A stretch of 64,000 nucleotides of DNA from Arabidopsis thaliana (Eukaryota; Streptophyta; Magnoliopsida; Brassicales; Brassicaceae). The DNA lies in NCBI RefSeq assembly GCF_000001735.4, contig NC_003074.8, positions 17,677,261-17,741,260 on the forward strand. The letters are read 5' to 3'. Made by a program: the position numbers and the translations under genes. Under the pieces are notes generated by a model. It did not search any database, had not been told where the DNA came from, and saw only the letters and a program-made list of their open reading frames with translations. This document shows, in pieces, positions 23,512-62,152 of the stretch (position 1 is the stretch's first letter; each line of letters starts with the position of its first letter).

Positions 23512-24089
23512 GTCAAGCTTCTCCGCTCAATTATATATAGTGGTGGAATCAAACGAGTGGATTTTGTCGGAATCTGGGCAAAGGGGGAAAAATGAAAATA
23601 AAGAATGGTGTGAATTTGGCTGTGAAAGATAGAGACATCTGTCTCTGAGTGACTCATTTTCATTTATTACTTTCCCTTTAACGTTTCTTTTTAATGTGTG
23701 GGCTGAGTTAGCTGGATTTAGGTAGGCCCATTTTTACACTAGTAAGTCAATATATTGTTTCAAAAGTCAATTATTTTATATATTAGTTTTTTGTTTAATG
23801 AGATATGTATGTTTACATTACACCAAGTTTATGATTTCAGATTTCTGTAGTCAAATTTTTCGATCGAATTATTATATTATATATGTCAAACCTATCAATT
23901 TAATAATTTTAGGTTTCGGTTGCGTAAAAGAAAAACTAGGTTTCGTTTTTTTTTTCTCTCTAAAATCTACTAGCATTTATAATTTACGAATAAAGTCAAC
24001 ATACTTTCTAATTTATGTTCTTTGTAGCTATTTCAAAAAAAATCCCTTCTTTTATGGGGGAATTTCAAAAATATCCAAGTAATATGTTT

Positions 24090-24306
24090 TTTAAATAACC
24101 GCATATATTGTATATTTTCAATTATGTATAACGATATATAAGATTTTTTATAAAAAAAAAATTTAAATACAAGATTTTCTAAATGAATTATAAGATTTTA
24201 TAAATATGAATGATTATTCAACCACTATAAGCCGTCACAGACATTAAATATATTATTTTTGAAATATGTATAATTGAAAATGGACAACACATATGGTCAA
24301 TTTTAA
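24090..24306. mobile_element. Foldback (MITE-like) element
   Basis: The left arm near 24,090-24,130 (containing TATATTTTCAATTATGTATA) is repeated inverted near 24,258-24,306 (TATACATATTTC side, with TTTTCAATTATACATA on the minus strand). It is followed by a (TA)n run at about 24,308-24,334. Arms are about 40-45 bp with several mismatches. No target duplication was resolved and the family is not assigned. Confidence 0.4.
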
Positions 24307-24307
24307 A

Positions 24308-24340
<33 letters not shown>

Positions 24341-29900: not shown

Positions 29901-30123
29901 AGAATTTTTTTAAAATATTCCTGTCATGATTTCCACAAATAAGAAATACAATTATAGATAGTTGATCGGTATCTTTTTAATTTAATATTAAATTATATTA
30001 AAAAAAACAAATATATAATTTAATATTAAATTCAAAAATAAATACCGATCAACTATCTATAATGGTATGATCTGTTGGTGTTTGTAGAAATCATGATAGG
30101 AATATTTTAAAAAAATATATTCT
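29901..30123. mobile_element. Foldback element with arms of about 100 bp
   Basis: The left arm begins AGAATTTTTTTAAAATATTC and the right arm read in reverse begins AGAATATATTTTTTTAAAAT. Both continue through CATGATTTC, ATTATAGATAGTTGATCGG and AATTTAATATTAAATT, leaving only a short AT-rich loop. This makes a near-complete hairpin of a non-autonomous DNA element. A fragment of the same arm (ACCGATCAACTAT) recurs just outside at 29,854-29,866, next to a duplicated AGATTAATTATATATAATTT block. This suggests a nested or repeated insertion. Confidence 0.65.
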
Positions 30124-50694: not shown

Positions 50695-51116
50695 CTTCTC
50701 CAGAACCAATGTCAAAAACCAAAGAGGAACAAGAAGAACAAAAAAAAAAGAGAAACCAAATTATGTATGTAGTCACGCGTGGCCTGTTCGTCACCAGAGA
50801 CCGTGTGACGACGAGCCGGTTCTGTAAAACGAGTCGGGTCGATGGTTCTGTGAATCGGGTCAGATTCCAGTGTTGGAATTGGAAAAAATAACATTTGGAT
50901 ACAGTCCACTGGGTTCACTTCTAACGTTCACGTCAGAAACAGCATCAAATCCGTTTTGGGCCTTTTTGGTTAACGTATTTCTCGTTTAATTTTTGCTTTG
51001 TCTTACTGAAACTTTTTTTTGTTTTATACTGAAAATTTTCATTTATAGCTTTATGCTTTTTGCCAACCATTCTCTGGGGGTTTGTCTCTGCGAATTTATT
51101 AATGCATACATTTTTC

Positions 51117-51299
51117 GATTACCCCTGAATAAAATTTAAAATCTGGATGATGAGCATCAATTCTAACTGTTACAGGTTGGCTTGCAACAGCCTTGAGAAG
51201 GGCTGCCTCGTTGAATGGATCTACAAATGCGAATTGATCGATGGTTACCCTCACGCCTTGTGCCTTTGAAGGGTCGCATTCTCATTTGATAGCTGTGTA
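51117..51299 (-). pseudogene. Papain-like cysteine protease fragment (mature-domain part)
   Basis: The minus-strand reading ECDPSKAQGVRVTID, then NEAALLKAVASQPVTVRID and DFKFYSGVI matches the region of papain-family proteases between the second Cys block and the His-loop. A stop (AIK*E) lies upstream and homology ends at YSGVI. It lies directly downstream of the inverted first-exon copies in the same orientation as the 51,524-51,699 arm, so it is probably the remainder of the same dead gene. Confidence 0.75.
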
Positions 51300-51311
51300 A
51301 GGATAAAAAAA

Positions 51312-51699
51312 ATGAAGATTCTTGCCTTGATTCTGTTTTCACTTAGCAGCATCCTCCAAAATATATGTGGATTCGATTATAACGAAACAGAACTAGAGAG
51401 TGAGGAGAGTTTATTAAAGTTATATAACAGGTGGGCGAGCCACCATCACGTTTCTATGAAACTCAAGCCAAAAGAAAATAGATTCTAAGTCTTCCGAAAT
51501 AACATGAAAAATGACCTAATAAAACTTAGAATCTATTTTCTTTTGTTTCGAACTTCATAGGAACGTGATGGTGGCTCGTCCACCTGTTGTATAGCTTTAA
51601 TAAACTCTCCTCACTCTCTAGTTCTGTTTCGTTATAATCGAATCCACAAACATTTTGAAGGGTGCTAAGTGAAAACAAAATCAAGACAAGAATCTTCAT
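51312..51699. repeat. Inverted duplication of a cysteine-protease first exon (long hairpin)
   Basis: Arm A (plus, 51,312-51,490) and arm B (minus, 51,699-51,524) are about 178 nt, about 90% alike, and separated by a loop of only 33 nt. Each reads MKIL(A/V)LILFSLS..., then CGFDYNETELESEESLLKLY and RW(A/T)SHHHV, the signal peptide and propeptide start of KDEL-type papain-like endopeptidases (CEP group). Both end NRF followed by TAA where an Asn codon is expected, so they share one nonsense change. Beyond it arm A still reads VFRNN, and the A-runs flanking the two ATGs are also shared. A transcript of either strand would fold into a near-perfect stem. Confidence 0.9.
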
Positions 51700-51782
51700 T
51701 TTTTTTTGCTTTGATTGCTTTTAATGGAAGTTGAAAGTGTAAGAAAGTGGAGGCTTGGAGATCTAAATAGGCAAGAGAAGCG

Positions 51783-51794
51783 ATATATATATAG
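51783..51794 (-). promoter_or_regulatory. TATA box upstream of the hairpin locus
   Basis: On the minus strand CTATATATATATCG lies about 85-95 nt before the ATG at 51,699. A pyrimidine-rich leader (CCTCCACTTTCTTACACTTT) and an A-rich pre-ATG stretch follow. This looks like the original core promoter of the protease gene, still placed to transcribe through both arms. Confidence 0.5.
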
Positions 51795-52138
51795 CTTCTT
51801 GCTTTCGGTTGGTTAATTATTAAGTTCATCACAAATGCATTGAAATGTGTGTGATCAACTTACCATAAATTAAAGTAACATCATGCAAATAAGATGATTA
51901 GGAATGATCGCACATTCGCACCTGTTTTTTCATTGAAAGATATTACAATTTCGGTTATTAGCTTATTTTCATGTGATCTTCATAAAGAGTATTCCATTAA
52001 AATCTGCTATCTATCATTAATTAACAAATAACAAACTCGTCTTGTCTATTAACAAATCATCACGTAGATTACTATATATGCACTAGTTTATTATCTCAAT
52101 TTGATGGATCATTTGCCTTGTCTCTGATGATACAGCCA

Positions 52139-53971: not shown

Positions 53972-54300
53972 TACATTTGTAAAAGCGATAAATATGAAAC
54001 GATTTAGAAAAGTCATGTGGATTAGATGGATATATCATGTGAGCCCCTCTTCTTTCCCTCTCTTCAGTCTTCAAACCAAAAAACGAAAGAGACAAAAATA
54101 CAAAATTGAAACTTTGAAAATATTGAAAGAAAAGTGAAAAAAAAGAGAGTTTAGTTTTTTTAATCATATGGGGTTTATATAGTTTATTACCACACTTCCT
54201 CATGTTAATCACTTCATTTATCTCTCTATTATCTCTCTCACAATCTCTCTGGTTTTTGGGCGTTTCTTCGTTGAAAGTTGTTTGCTTTTGGTGAGTTAGA

Positions 54301-55981
54301 ATGGCTTCGAGTGCTTCAAAATTCATCAAATGTGTGACTGTTGGAGATGGTGCCGTTGGAAAAACTTGTATGCTCATCTGCTACACTAGCAACAAATTCC
54401 CTACTGTAAGTTTAAAATTTGATCAAGTAAATCACAGTTTCGCTGATTTTTCATCAAATTGTTCTTTCGGGCATCTCCAATTTCGTCACTTTTAGTTGAA
54501 TATACTTCTGGGTCTGTCAAATTTCAACTCTTTCACCGAGAATTTTAGCATGGTATTTCAAAGTTAGCTCCTTTTTTAGGGATTGTGCAAAAATAATCCT
54601 TTTTTGGAGATTCTGAAAAATCTTACATTGTAAAGTTAGTGGCTTTCTTGATTCACCAGTGTTTCCTCTTACTCTATTGCGCATTTGTTGTTCTCGTGAA
54701 GTTAAAGATTTGCTTGATGGATTGTATCAGGACTACATACCAACAGTTTTTGACAACTTTAGTGTTAATGTTGTGGTTGAAGGCATCACTGTGAACTTAG
54801 GCCTTTGGGACACTGCCGGTAAGTAACATTTCTGTATCCCTCTCTTGAATATCTCAGAATAACCAAGTTCACTAATGTTATGTGGTTCTAATCTTTCTAA
54901 CATCTAGCAAGTTTGCTTTTGATTTGGGATTCTTAGATAGAGAACTTTATAGGGAGTGTTGAAGATTAGTGACTGTTAAGAGTTTTATGATTATGAGTAC
55001 CCTTTCATGTTTGCAGGGCAAGAAGACTATAACAGACTAAGGCCTTTAAGTTACAGAGGAGCAGATGTTTTTGTGTTGGCTTTCTCATTGATCAGCCGAG
55101 CTAGCTATGAGAATGTGTTTAAAAAGGTTTGTGGAAATTGGATTCATTGTATTTCTTACTGGGAAAACAAAGAATGAAATGTGAATTTCTGATGTTTTTG
55201 AAGCGTTTATTTTGTTCAGTGGATCCCTGAACTCCAACACTTTGCACCAGGAGTCCCCATTGTGCTTGTTGGTACCAAAATGGGTAAGATAGCTATAAGA
55301 GTGGAGCCAACATATTTCCTTGTGTAATGCTTGAGAATCACATATATGTAATGTTTCTTACAATGTTCCGTTATCTAGATCTTCGTGAAGATAGACATTA
55401 CTTGTCTGATCATCCTGGACTGTCCCCGGTAACTACATCACAGGTGTGCTTTTTCAACCTGTAGAAACCGAAAAGATTGTTGTGACATTCTCTAGACTCT
55501 CTCTTCTCTAGGTTTTATATGATTTAATCATTCATGTGTTACAGGGAGAGGAACTCCGCAAGCATATCGGAGCGACTTATTACATTGAATGTAGCTCAAA
55601 AACTCAACAGGTACACTTGTTCATGTGTGTTTGGAAACTTAGGAGTCATTAGTGTTAGGTGACTCTTTACTTGCAAACTATATGCTTTTCTTTGGTTCAT
55701 GGCTTTTGCAGAATGTGAAAGCCGTATTTGATGCTGCTATTAAAGTAGTAATTAAACCAGCAGTGAAACAAAAGGAGAAGAAGAAGAAGCAGAAGCCTCG
55801 CAGCGGATGTCTCTCGTAAGTTCAATAATCTTCACTCTTTTTAATATATAACTAAGAAATTATGTAATACTAGAATTTGGTTATGCAACCTTTAGCTTCT
55901 TCATACAGTTTTGTTTGTTTGTGTAATGATTATAGATTGGCTTCTCTATTGTGCAGAAACATTCTGTGTGGGAAGAATTGA
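54301..55981 (+). CDS. ROP10: Rho-of-plants small GTPase ROP10
   Basis: A plasma-membrane signalling GTPase; ROP10 is a negative regulator of abscisic acid responses. Exons 54301-54405, 54731-54818, 55017-55126, 55220-55283, 55379-55443, 55545-55610, 55712-55815 and 55957-55981 give 208 residues, matching AT3G48040. The G1 motif is GDGAVGKT, the effector loop [10 protein letters not shown]3 is WDTAGQE, G4 is GTKMD, and the Rho insert follows. A polybasic stretch precedes CLSNILCGKN, a type II ROP tail with two S-acylated cysteines in place of a CAAX box. The last intron, between the two Cys codons, is a known site of isoform change in this type. Confidence 0.96.
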
Positions 55982-57009
55982 TGAGTCAATTCCATCTGAT
56001 GATTGTTCACTTCTTTTTTTTTCTTTTCTTTTCTAATTGGCCAGTTTGTGATTCTGATAAGTCGGAATTACATAGACTCTGGCAGAGATGAGCCTCAATT
56101 AGTAGCTTCTTCGATTCTGTTTGTATATGTGACCCTGATGTTTGTTTGTTTCGATTTGGTTTGACCCTTATAGAATTGTTATAGCCATTTTGTAGCCAAA
56201 ACTTGGAGTAGTTCACGACTTAACGTGGTTAACACTTGCTTCTTTCGAAAAAAGGTGAATCCTTAATCACATATTCGAATTTATTTGGTCCTATTATGAG
56301 ATCCAAGACCAAACGACAAAAGCGTGACAAGTAAGAAGAAGCCTGTAAATTTCAAACAGAACCAGCACAAGAAGTAATAAATCTACAAACTGGAAAAAGA
56401 AAGATAAAAAGAAGTAACTAATCTTGTGTCTATAATACAACCCCCATCACCTAACGCACACATGTAAAGCCACAATGCGAAAGACTTTTTTTTTTATCAT
56501 TTTGAACACACTCAAAAGCCACCAACATTTGTTTTATCGCTAGTTTTTTGAGCCGGTGTATAGAGATACACACATGCATGAAAAATGACCTAAAAGTGTG
56601 TTTTCACCTTTTAAAACTCTTTGTGGGGAGGTGGTGATGCGGGTCTCTCGCTGAGAACCTTGTTGATGACTCTTCTGAAAGAGAATGGCCACTCCGGTGA
56701 ATTTAGGACTGTTTTTGGAAGATCTACATGATGGTGAAACCAAGAGGTCAGGTTTGTGTTCTTAAAAAGGTTGAGACCACTGTGAAGTCGCAAATTGACT
56801 CACCCATGCCTCATTTGTACAGAGCAGGCCAGCCAATGAAGCCTTGTGGCATCACATTCACTCTCATCTCTTAGTAACTAGCAGAGTAAAAATGTAACTG
56901 AAACATTAGTAAGAGAGAGAAAAACAAAAAGAGAGGTCATAAAACACTAAGGTTTGTGGATTTCGAGGGCTTACAAGCTCATGTGGCCTACTGAGATTCT
57001 GAGCTACTG

Positions 57010-60000
57010 TTATTGCCATGAGGACTGCCTATATCCATCCCATCCTCCTTCCGGTTCTTTCCTCTTCAGAACACCACCTGACATTTGATACATTCTTGCT
57101 TGATCCTCCTTCAAAGGTAAGGAAGCAGATGAGGATAATTGCCTTGCCACAAGTGTTGATTCGTCTCTTCCCTCTGTTTCATGACCTCCAGGACCAGAAT
57201 TTAAGTCAAGTCCTGACCTAAACCATTTCGCGCCATTGTCCAAAACACCGCCATTGCTACCACCGTTTGGGAGGCCAACTATATAAGGTCTTGGGTAATT
57301 AGACGGAACTGGAACTCCAGGACCCAATATTTGAGAGTTGACACCGGGGAAGCAAGCTCTCCCGCTTGAAGAAGAATCCATGTGTGCTGTAGAAGCACCA
57401 GGGAAATTCGCTGAGGTAACGGGGAAGCTGTTTCCAAAAGGAAAGACAGGATACTGGAACGTTGTGGACTGAAATGGCATGGCTGGAGACGACGACAAAA
57501 CAGGACCCCTGTACCCTTCAGGGGTAAATGAGGAAACACCAGTTGTTGGACCCAACATTCTCTGTGGGCCACGAGTGGCAATCATTGGAAAAGGCTGATC
57601 ACCTCTCTCAGGCATAATTGGAGGCATGCTCACAGCTGAATAAGCGTTAGCAGCAGGAAACCAAGTTGAGAAACTAGCCATGTTTTCGCCATTCACTCGA
57701 ATTCCAGAGAGAGATGGTTGTGATGGCAAGCCACTTCGTGAATGTTGATTTAGAACCATAGATGGCTCAACAGCTGCATCATCACCCACAGGTCCATCAT
57801 TTAAATCAAAATCTCTACGACCACCAGTCGATGGTAATTTAACCTGCTGAAAAGATGAATCTAGCCGATGACTACTGTTCATTGTGTAGCTGATCATATC
57901 AGTTGAATCATCAACTTTGTTTAGATCAAGATCAAGGCCTCCAGAAGAATGATCAAGGGCGGAACCCATGACCCCAGAACGTACTTGGTCAAAACTATTG
58001 GTGATATCAGATGTACAATTTGTGGGATTTCCAGATCTTTGGGAAGCCAAATCTTCAAGGACTCTCTCGTCAGGTACATTCAAGTCAAAATCCAGAAACG
58101 TCCTTGTCTGTTTGCCAGCAGAAGTAGATGCATCAGATGTAGAGGTGTTGTTAATGCTCAGTAACACATCCTGAGGTTTTCTTGGCTCAGCTGGGCGGAA
58201 GGCACTAGTGGCAGCAGATCCTCTCCAACCAACAGCCCCTTTATTTCTCAACAGATCTTCAGGTGGAACAAACGGACCTTTGGCAGCAGCAGCAACAGTA
58301 ATAGATGCACGAGTTCCACTAGATACAGGAGCCACCGGAAAAGGTAAGGTCTTAACTGGTTGTAGAGGAGTAGGCGTCAAAAATACAGATCCAGAGAAGT
58401 TATTTGAGTCCCCATGTTTTGCATCGTCTCCATCAAAACCTTCATTTAGATCAAATTCAACTCTGGCATCCATCTCAGAGCCAGCTGAAGCTGCAGCTGA
58501 AACAGAAGAAGCATCTCTGGCAGCAGACGTACATTCCCCCGCTTCATCTCCATCAGCATCACTGGTTTTAGGCCCATTCGGTCTCTCAAGATCCTCAGCT
58601 TCTTTAGGTGATAATCCTGGAGTAGCTCTTAATCCTGAGTACCGTTCCTTGACTTCACTATTTTCCAGATTCCCCTCCACAGGCTCAACTTTACCTTTAG
58701 TTACAGATGAGTCCAAACCGGCTGAGGTATCCTTTATAGCTCCCACAGAAGTATCACAATCCTGCTTAATCTTCTTTACATCTTTTTGGTCCATATGATT
58801 AAACGCAACATTATTGACCATTTCAGTTATAGGTCTACCAATGCTTACAGCATCCATATCCCTTGAAATCCCAGAAGAAACGGGTACATCTTCTTCCACT
58901 TTTTTAACTAGCTCAGAACTCAACGCCGTTGGGGGTTTCTCTTCTTTCTTATCATCATCAACACCTTCCAAGGGAGTCTGTTCAACAGCCACAGAATCTA
59001 CCTTTTTACTTACATCTCTACATTCGGTTAGCATTGAGCTTGCTACTCTTTTCGTTGAGTCAGATGTGCAATCAGCCTCTGATTTAACATCAGTCTTTAT
59101 ATCCTTCAGTTCCCCAGAGTCACTATCATTCAAAATCTTTTCCTTAACGGCTTTAGTGGGTAAAGCAGGCGAAGCAACAACACCATCTGAATTGTCATTG
59201 CTCTCTAAGCACTGATCCACCAACCTTTGCAGATCTTCAGTGTCTGAATTCGAGCTCTTATCACGATCTCCGGTCTTAGATTCATTTTTTATTTCTGACT
59301 CCAACTGTGTGCCACTACTGCTAACATGTTGCTCACCTTGCTCAGTACTGACAGAGGTACAAACAGCTTGATGTTGCTCGTGAGGCAAGCCATCCGAAGC
59401 CATTAGCTTTGTATTGTTCCCTACAGTAGAATTTTCATTCATCACGGAATTTGGAGGCTGAGATACTGAGGGAGATGCAACAGGCGATTTAGACATCTCA
59501 TCAGCAGCAACACTAGCAAGAAGATTCATTCCAACATCATCCGAACCAGCCAAAGAGGCATTCGTCTCAGAGTATCTGACACAACTTTCAATCAAAGCAT
59601 TCATCGAACTGAGTGTTCCGCCATGCCTCTCTCCAGATTTGAACTCATTTCCTAAGGAAGATGTGCCTTTAACATTCCCAGATGCTTTATCAGAATCCTT
59701 AAGATCCCCTCCGCGCTCATCACCAGCAACAAGTGGTGAACCAGCTGCCTCTTGCGAGCCTGTCAAAATATCTTTTAATTCATTGCTTTGCCAAGACTCA
59801 GCATTCAAGACAGAGCTCACATTAGGTCGATAAGAATGATTTTTTTCTCTCCCGTTATTGTCACATAGTTCCTGCTTCACCGCATGCACAGGTGAAGAAA
59901 CTCTGCTATTCACCGGTGCAGGGTCTTCCAAAGAGCCTCCACTCACACTTTGAGCAGGACTTCGACCACGATTCGGCAGCTTCACAATCAATTTATTACC

Positions 60001-62152
60001 GGAACCCTCAGTCAGAGGAACCTCAAGAGTCTTTTCAGATGTCAAACTTGATTGAGAAATTTTCTCAGAAGGGACATTCCTGTGTGATGAGAAGCTTCTA
60101 CTCAAACCAGCTCCCCTAGGGGATGCTGACGAAGACGAACCTTGAAACACATTGTTTGACTTCCGATGCCTTGAAGAGCCACCGGAACACTTCTTCAAAG
60201 TTGAACCAGCAGTAGAGCTTCTTGCATCTTCTTTTCCACATAAATTGCCTGTTTTAGCATGCTCGCTCGAGCAAGACTGACTATTATTGTGCGACTGACT
60301 GGAGCTGCTACTTTTCTCATCCTTTACTGCAGCTAGGACTTCAGATACACCACCAGCCCCAGCATTTCGCTGCTGTCCATCTTTAGAAACATTACCACCT
60401 GATCCCGGAGAAGGAGCTGATCTTGTGGAGCCTGGCGACGTGGCTACACACTTCAGGTTGTTTTCCACCTGTTGTTTGACCGAGACAGACTTAGAAGCAT
60501 GTAGGTGTGATGATGATGTCTTGTTTGCCTCCGCGGAACCACCTGAATGCCTTCCCCCATGACTCAGTCTTCCAGGCCAGGAAACACCCTGGTTGGATCC
60601 AGACTTCGCATCCATTTCTGCCTCAACTCGTTTCTTCCAAGTGTCAACCAAGCTCCTTGCTTTTTTCCCAATCTCTGAATTTTTATGTGAGCGTAGATGA
60701 TTAACAGACTTTCCAATGTTACAAGTCTGTAGCGCGTTGAGATTCACAGGTAGCTTATCAAGAGCCCGAAGTAAGACTAAGAGGAAATCGTCTACTAACC
60801 TATCACTGTCTTTGGGACTGCCCCCATCCCCAACTTTCCCTTTATGAACTTCCTGCAGCCACTCATCAAACACAGGTAATCCCCTGAGCTGGACAAAACG
60901 ACTAAGGCAATCAAACTTGTCTGTTGCCGCTACAACCCCTGCAAGAATTGCACGGCCAACTAAGTCTATTTTCTTTTCATTCCTCTCAGGCAGCATGAGC
61001 TGAACCAATTTTTCAACTCCTTCAGAATCCACCAGACCACCTTTCTCTGTAAATTTTAAAATTTCAGACTTTAAACCGCTTTCTGTTCTGAGGGGACCAG
61101 AACCACTGTCATCTACTCGACTAGAACGTTCCCTTTTAACAGACTCGGAACCATGATCCATACGCTCTCTTTTCCTTCCCTTACCCTGAGAGAGAAAAGA
61201 GTTACTGTTCTGGATGCCATCTTTCGGTTGTGATGTTGTTGGACTATTCATGGACTTGGGAGACCGACCACCCTGCTGTAATGTTGTATGCATTTCTGAA
61301 CGAGTCTTACACAATAACTTGTCTACTTCTAGTTGTCGATCCTGCAAAGAGGAAAAAAATGCCTTAGTTACCAGAGAAAGCCATAAATCCAAATAGAAGA
61401 AGGCAGTTGGTGATGAGTTATAATCTCACATCAATATAGTCTTGATCAGTCAGCCACCATAAGCGCTCGTTTGTAACGTCGTAAACTCGCCGACACACAA
61501 ACGAGCTGATACCAGATGGCAGTTCAACACCTCTTGGAAGGAAGGCAACTTTACACGGATGCAGTAAAGATGCAGCAGGTATATTATCCTCGTGAAAGGA
61601 GTAAAAGAGTTCGTTCGGCTCAGCCTCTAGAAGGATGCCTTTGCCAAGTTTTAATTCAGTGGGTCGATAAAGCCAATTAACACCCAACTTCAACTTATCT
61701 TCTTCCTCAGCAATGATCAAGCGAATTATCCCAATGAACGGTGGACAATCCTGTGGTGGCTTAAACAGAGCACAGTCACCAACACTAATTTTGCGCCCGT
61801 CCTGCTAGTGACAGCAAACACCAAACAAAACTATAAGTCGAAGAGCAAACCCAAAAAAAAAAAAAAAAACTCATTTTCTCGAATCAAGCAATAGAATCAC
61901 AAAATCCAGACGAAATTTCAAAACTTTGGGCAAACCCATCCACCAAAACAGAAGGAAACACGAAAGAAAAAAAAAACGCCTGAGGAAATCGAAACGAAAT
62001 CGAATAGAACTTACCTTAGAAAACGAGGTAGATGAAGATAAGGACAAACAAGAAGAACCACCACCTTCCACAGTCGCAATTACACGAGAGGAAGATATCA
62101 ACATGTGCCGACGACGACTTTTGTGTCTCCGCTCACAAACCCTCCCATGCAT
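57010..62152 (-). CDS. SUO: SUO: BAH / TFIIS-N / GW-motif protein of miRNA-mediated translational repression
   Basis: Exons 62152-62015, 61801-61430 and 61341-57010 join to 1613 residues, the length of SUO (AT3G48050). The BAH domain spans about residues 45-170 (ISVGDCALFKPP to VYDVTNERLWWLTDQDYID). The TFIIS N-terminal (LW) domain is at about 280-400 (LVQLMLPERNEKKIDLVGRA; DTWKKRVE). A long Ser-rich disordered region follows. VGWRG and GGWDGY are the GW/WG sites thought to contact Argonaute. Five DLN motifs sit in the C-terminal third. SUO represses translation of miRNA targets and is reported in nucleus and P bodies. Exon 3 is a single 4.3-kb block. Confidence 0.95.

Follow-up and report, generated by a model that had tools for sequence, protein, structure and literature searches.

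The window (the whole 64-kb stretch of Arabidopsis thaliana DNA analysed) carries at 51305-51706 a long hairpin that is very probably an endogenous inverted-repeat source of siRNAs, a proto-MIRNA derived from a lost paralogue of CEP2. It is best read as a proto-MIRNA of the siRNA type and not as a miRNA gene. CEP2 (At3g48340) encodes a KDEL-tailed protease connected with programmed cell death. The birth of a new miRNA gene is argued from loci at a single stage. Here two foldbacks of one parental family, the hairpin and MIR843, are near neighbours that represent different stages, in a plant that has been studied intensively. This raises the question of whether the sibling at the siRNA stage still acts on the parent family while the sibling at the miRNA stage has switched targets.

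Structure of the inverted repeat

The hairpin consists of two copies of one exon separated by a 27-nt loop (51494-51520). Arm A (51521-51706, minus strand) has the exon in sense on the minus strand, forms the 5' arm of a minus-strand transcript and holds a 57-codon ORF ending in TAA. Arm B (51305-51493, plus strand) is the inverted copy, with a 58-codon ORF and the same TAA end. The repeat finder split the structure into two pieces that overlap, one of 146 nt with 90% complementarity and one of 44 nt with 95%, and these made up two of the four rows of inverted pairs in the window with arms of at least 35 nt no more than 1.5 kb apart. When the arms were aligned, 169 of 185 positions were alike, with 16 substitutions (14 of them transitions) and one 3-nt indel. 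The inverted duplication with arms about 90% alike that an earlier reading of the sequence alone had proposed was thus recovered, with limits slightly different from the 178-nt arms and 33-nt loop given there. The loop continues the exon of arm B (VFRNNMKND beyond the TAA), so the copy in arm B is longer than that in arm A.

Folding of the minus strand from 51290 to 51720 gave -275.2 kcal/mol compared with -86.8 (sd 5.4) in 100 shuffles (z -35). There were 185 predicted pairs in the minus-strand transcript and 177 in the plus-strand transcript, and the longest uninterrupted helix was 54 and 95 pairs, respectively, compared with 16 and 20 for MIR843. A long near-perfect foldback, as expected of an inverted-duplication siRNA locus or proto-MIRNA, is therefore present at 51305-51706. 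The probable start codon of At3g48030, as read from the ORF, is 611-1012 nt downstream of it; HIG1 and RING domains were detected in this gene. The names At3g48030, ROP10 and SUO are annotated names that we take to apply from the gene order. The window corresponds to C3:17677261-17741260. Its assignment to Arabidopsis thaliana agrees with the presence of miR843 in the adjoining DNA and with the protein read at the CEP2 locus, which is 100% identical to Arabidopsis entries (a cluster named A. suecica over the full length, an A. thaliana entry over 82%).

Origin of the arms from a CEP-type protease gene

Both arms match exon 1 of CEP2 with 54-56% protein identity (E about 1e-15). Their ORFs (51526-51699, minus strand, 57 aa; 51312-51488, plus strand, 58 aa) each encode a CEP-protease signal peptide followed by the beginning of the propeptide, and the resemblance to a coding gene reaches far beyond a 21-nt target site. 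No Pfam family was found at E 0.1 with either ORF alone. Alignment to CEP2 and to what are presumably CEP1 and CEP3, assigned by homology (61% and 62% to CEP2) and chromosomal position, related the arms to papain-like proteases through exon 1 of CEP2, in agreement with the cysteine-protease origin given in the sequence-only reading. The fragment of a mature protease noted there was also present. It lies at 51123-51302 (minus strand), extends from PYTAIK to FYSG, contains a single in-frame stop and matches exon 2 of CEP2; an ORF within it reached 21.8 bits for Peptidase_C1 (cut-off 20.7). The start of arm B lies within the A-run that precedes the ATG, and this is also the point at which it meets the second half of exon 2.

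The same nonsense codon TAA, as claimed, closes both arms (51526-51528, minus strand, in arm A; 51486-51488, plus strand, in arm B) and is absent from CEP1, CEP2, CEP3 and both MIR843 arms. The run of A residues just upstream of the start codon had been taken as another sign of common decay, but CEP2 has such a run too; it is thus inherited and proves nothing about decay.

Between arm A and CEP2, 12, 16 and 27 differences fall on codon positions 1, 2 and 3 (dN/dS about 0.2), and dN/dS for arm B was 0.24, in a codon-by-codon comparison from which the CEP3 rows, misaligned by one codon, were left out. The third-position excess and the dN/dS of about 0.2 indicate that much of the divergence of exon 1 from CEP2 arose under protein selection. 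For the exon-2 piece the differences were 20, 16 and 19 and dN/dS was 0.66. Judged from these codon patterns, the parent is a lost, once functional relative of CEP2, with the signal carried by exon 1 and not by the exon-2 piece.

A search for an intact protein with the arm A peptide, by a method that needs shared exact words, gave eight candidates and none at E 1e-3. The search with the CEP2 protein gave 7949 proteins, and many of the 120 listed were named vignain or KDEL-tailed endopeptidase. A MITE or other transposon was also considered as the source. Arm A with its leader, searched against the genome at E up to 10, recovered at least the hairpin itself, MIR843 and CEP2; as no dispersed copies were among the matches found, this origin was rejected.

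Leader and TATA-type motif

The 5' leader (51700-51780, minus strand) bears a weak likeness to that of CEP2, with a local score of 38 compared with a mean of 23 and a best of 36 in 200 shuffles. Without the 45 nt closest to the ATG, the score was 20 and the similarity was gone. The TATA-type motif proposed earlier does exist, at 51783-51793 (minus strand), 90-94 nt before the ATG of arm A, and would be a putative promoter element; such motifs are nevertheless common in the window, about two per kb per strand. The TATA motif of CEP2 lies 72-74 nt before its ATG and does not align with the one at 51783-51793. It is possible that the promoter was inherited from the CEP-like gene.

Divergence of the arms and order of events

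The divergence between the arms was 0.092 (JC), a roughly two- to threefold higher value than in the adjacent ROP10-SUO tandem duplication (0.029-0.054), so the description of the hairpin as young holds only in a relative sense. Among 15 differences 7 were synonymous and 8 were other changes (dN/dS 0.22, Fisher P 0.007), and they fell 8, 2 and 5 on the three codon positions, with no third-position excess. The synonymous count alone would suggest that both copies remained coding for a while after the inversion. The chance of at least seven synonymous changes, however, was 0.15 at the observed share of transitions, 0.08 at 70% transitions and 0.009 without transition excess. With regard to G-U pairing, the differences were 8 against 6 between the strands; there was no bias and hence no sign of selection on pairing. 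Gene conversion between the arms was considered as well, but the longest identical run (54 nt) had a P of 0.05 under random placement, too weak to claim it. The common TAA may be either older than the inversion or spread between the arms by copying. The proposal that an already dead gene was inverted fits the common stop, which copying between the arms could also have produced.

Relationship to MIR843

Outside the window, 13.1 kb from the hairpin, a second and shorter foldback of the same origin was found at C3:17742109-17742291. Its 82-nt arms are 77% complementary, 19 nt apart and alike at 64 of 89 positions. It contains miR843 exactly, at C3:17742147-17742167 (plus strand), according to the sequence printed in a table of PMC1790633, which gives F-box and ACC-synthase genes as targets. 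AT3G48057 is named MIR843A in PMC3264603, and ath-MIR843 appears in PMC10085913 among the nonconserved MIRs with nonvariable copy number.

The hairpin and MIR843 are both foldbacks of a CEP-type exon 1 beside an exon-2 remnant. In trees of up to 100 columns, arms A and B and the two MIR843 arms formed one group apart from CEP1, CEP2 and CEP3 with 100% bootstrap, so the arms share their ancestry with the MIR843 family. Within the group, arms A and B were joined at 71 and 78% in two runs, and the pair was joined with one MIR843 arm (Y) at 49 and 52%. MIR843 differs from the hairpin in being shorter and imperfect, in carrying miR843 and in its polarity: the hairpin has the ATG side at the base of the stem, whereas MIR843 has the earlier part of the exon at the loop. 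No junction shared by the two was seen by eye in the alignments. Genome-wide, mature miR843 had six sites within 3 mismatches, none of them at 51305-51706, and the hairpin as a target of miR843 showed 5-6 mismatches at best. No Rfam family reached the gathering score at either foldback; MIR5998, MIR7696, MIR7807 and others were far below the cut-off, and no MIR843 family was among the matches listed.

Small RNAs reported from what is probably the same locus

A MIRNA gene is recognized by one precise miRNA/miRNA* duplex whose formation depends on DCL1. In PMC2877095, a sentence and a table row describe an inverted repeat, Group4327, located by At3g48030, with homology to MIR843 but without mature miR843, which produces abundant 21- and 24-nt siRNAs. 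There the repeat is taken to suggest a different origin of MIR843; the passages concerned neither tie it to a CEP gene nor give it targets. The same paper states that Fahlgren et al. noted weak homology of MIR843 to At3g48340 (CEP2), a locus that the main text of PMC1790633 does not mention. Keyword literature searches on At3g48030 with siRNA and on At3g48340 with 'inverted' returned nothing beyond PMC2877095.

Group4327 is most likely the hairpin at 51305-51706: both lie by At3g48030 and are homologous to MIR843, and the window has no second such repeat. Provided that the two are the same, the siRNA-type output predicted from the sequence is supported by the data in PMC2877095. The miRNA status that had been suggested together with it was not supported, given the mixed published sizes and the lack of a miR843 match within 3 mismatches. 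If this identification holds, the repeat and its siRNAs are already in print, and what is new here is the origin from a lost CEP-like gene, the polarity opposite to that of MIR843 and the possible target CEP2.

CEP2 as a possible target

Target scores were computed for all 764 21-mers of the hairpin, from either strand, on about 2 kb of the sense strand of each of the genes CEP1, CEP2 and CEP3. On CEP2, 16 of the 764 scored 4 or better, the best being three at 2.0, while on CEP1 and CEP3 none did so and the best score was 5.5. With the reversed-sequence control, no score on the three genes was as good as 4 (best 5.5-6.0). Elsewhere in the window (63 kb, both strands), 16 matches scored 4 or better and three scored 3 or better, with none at or below 2.5. 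CEP2 and CEP3 had been named as natural targets; CEP2 is plausible as an siRNA target at one conserved site, as judged from the match, and CEP1 and CEP3 are not.

The candidate siRNA for this site is the 21-mer at 51635-51655 (plus strand), which starts with U and has 2 mismatches to exon 1 of CEP2 (target score 2.0). In the genome searched (119.7 Mb, seven contigs) it had 16 sites within 3 mismatches, 13 of them with 3; within 2 lay its own site, its counterpart in the opposite arm and CEP2, so that CEP2 is the only such site beyond the hairpin locus. The reversed control of the 21-mer had nine sites within 3 mismatches. The CEP2 site codes for the conserved protein stretch CGFDY, and the match may be due to plain ancestry or protein conservation alone. 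The score of miR843 on CEP2 was 12. The statements on CEP2 in PMC3906980 give it as nitrate-responsive and make no link with siRNAs.

On the MIR843 foldback (C3:17742095-17742304), 50 of the 764 21-mers scored 4 or better on the plus strand and 51 on the minus strand. siRNAs of the hairpin could thus touch the MIR843 precursor.

Proposed mechanism and alternative explanations

The birth model adopted for the hairpin is set out in PMC1790633. The sequence shows that the KDEL-tailed protease gene CEP2 had a paralogue which was lost, and that a rearrangement, broken at one end in the A-run upstream of the ATG and at the other within exon 1, placed an inverted exon 1 behind the first copy, with loss of the middle of the gene. 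A transcript of either strand, the minus-strand one from the leader and TATA-type motif, or the published antisense RNA over At3g48030, would fold into a stem of about 180 pairs. DCL4/DCL2 and DCL3, and not DCL1, would cut it into mixed 21- and 24-nt siRNAs; the sizes are published, and these Dicers are those expected from other long foldbacks. The 24-nt siRNAs would have their effect in cis, both on the locus itself and on the promoter of At3g48030, and a few 21-mers may act in trans on CEP2. MIR843 is a sibling of the same origin with drifted arms; its miRNA has ceased to match CEP2, and F-box genes are the targets predicted in print. In its most specific form, the idea that the two hairpins were born separately and with opposite polarity within about 13 kb from one lost CEP2-like lineage, that MIR843 turned to F-box genes and that the other still silences CEP2, is unlikely. 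Were it true, the two loci would offer a natural comparison of before and after in the making of a miRNA gene.

It is a real possibility, though one we hold short of probable, that the locus is merely a rearranged pseudogene and an inert relic, with weak transcription of the foldback and siRNAs that affect no gene; this estimate is for the lack of an effect and overlaps with the siRNA-source reading, which claims the origin and the siRNA output. The arms show no bias toward changes that preserve pairing, no selection test is significant once transitions are allowed for, and the 24-nt class is compatible with such a relic. Against it are the abundant 21-nt siRNAs that PMC2877095 reports for the repeat besides those of 24 nt, the nearly complete pairing that the arms retain and a CEP2 site that scores better than every background match. 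That 51305-51706 is a genuine MIRNA gene which, as a further MIR843 locus, gives one precise miRNA would agree with the common origin of the two foldbacks but is extremely improbable in view of the near-perfect stem of about 180 pairs, the opposite polarity, the mixed siRNA sizes in print and the distance of the hairpin from miR843, both as source and as target.

Another explanation is that the hairpin and MIR843 are one foldback duplicated together with ROP10 and SUO, or remnants of an older sense-antisense-sense structure. The protease fragment and the arms stand in the same order beside ROP10 sequence in both places, and this colinear order at first suggested co-duplication; the weak order of the four-arm tree (49-52%) would allow the older triple structure. 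The tandem duplication itself is young and relates C3:17742299-17746500, immediately beyond the window and up to the end of the examined stretch, to window 54190-60282. Its divergence was 0.029-0.054 (JC) on substitutions only, which were used since the BLAST identities of the copies (87-97%) include gaps and ragged ends. The hairpins differ from each other by 0.24-0.37, and MIR843 is, on these divergences, not a co-duplicate of 51305-51706. Moreover, the segment starts 8 nt past the right arm of MIR843, and CEP sequence is missing from the corresponding place of the first copy; the ROP10 copy, which lacks about 1.2 kb, abuts the MIR843 foldback with its left edge. With opposite polarity and no common junction seen in addition, we regard this explanation as improbable.

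Comparison with other inverted repeats

As a source of siRNAs, the hairpin resembles the IR71-type repeats described in PMC12825306, a class of long foldbacks handled by DCL2, DCL3 and/or DCL4. IR71, as given there, forms about 3 kb of dsRNA, whereas the hairpin forms about 0.18 kb from one exon. The VIM4-VIM2 repeat of ecotype Cvi is likewise reported, in the account of it in PMC13213937, to yield siRNAs from inverted gene copies that silence a relative in trans. It consists of two whole genes with VIM1 as the reported target, in contrast to a dead exon with CEP2 as a predicted target.

Elsewhere in the window, an inverted repeat at 29904-29939 and 30081-30116 (36 nt, 94% complementary, 141 nt apart) has a size that suggests a MITE-like element, and an AT-rich inverted repeat with 49-nt arms of 73% complementarity was found at 24082-24130 and 24265-24313.
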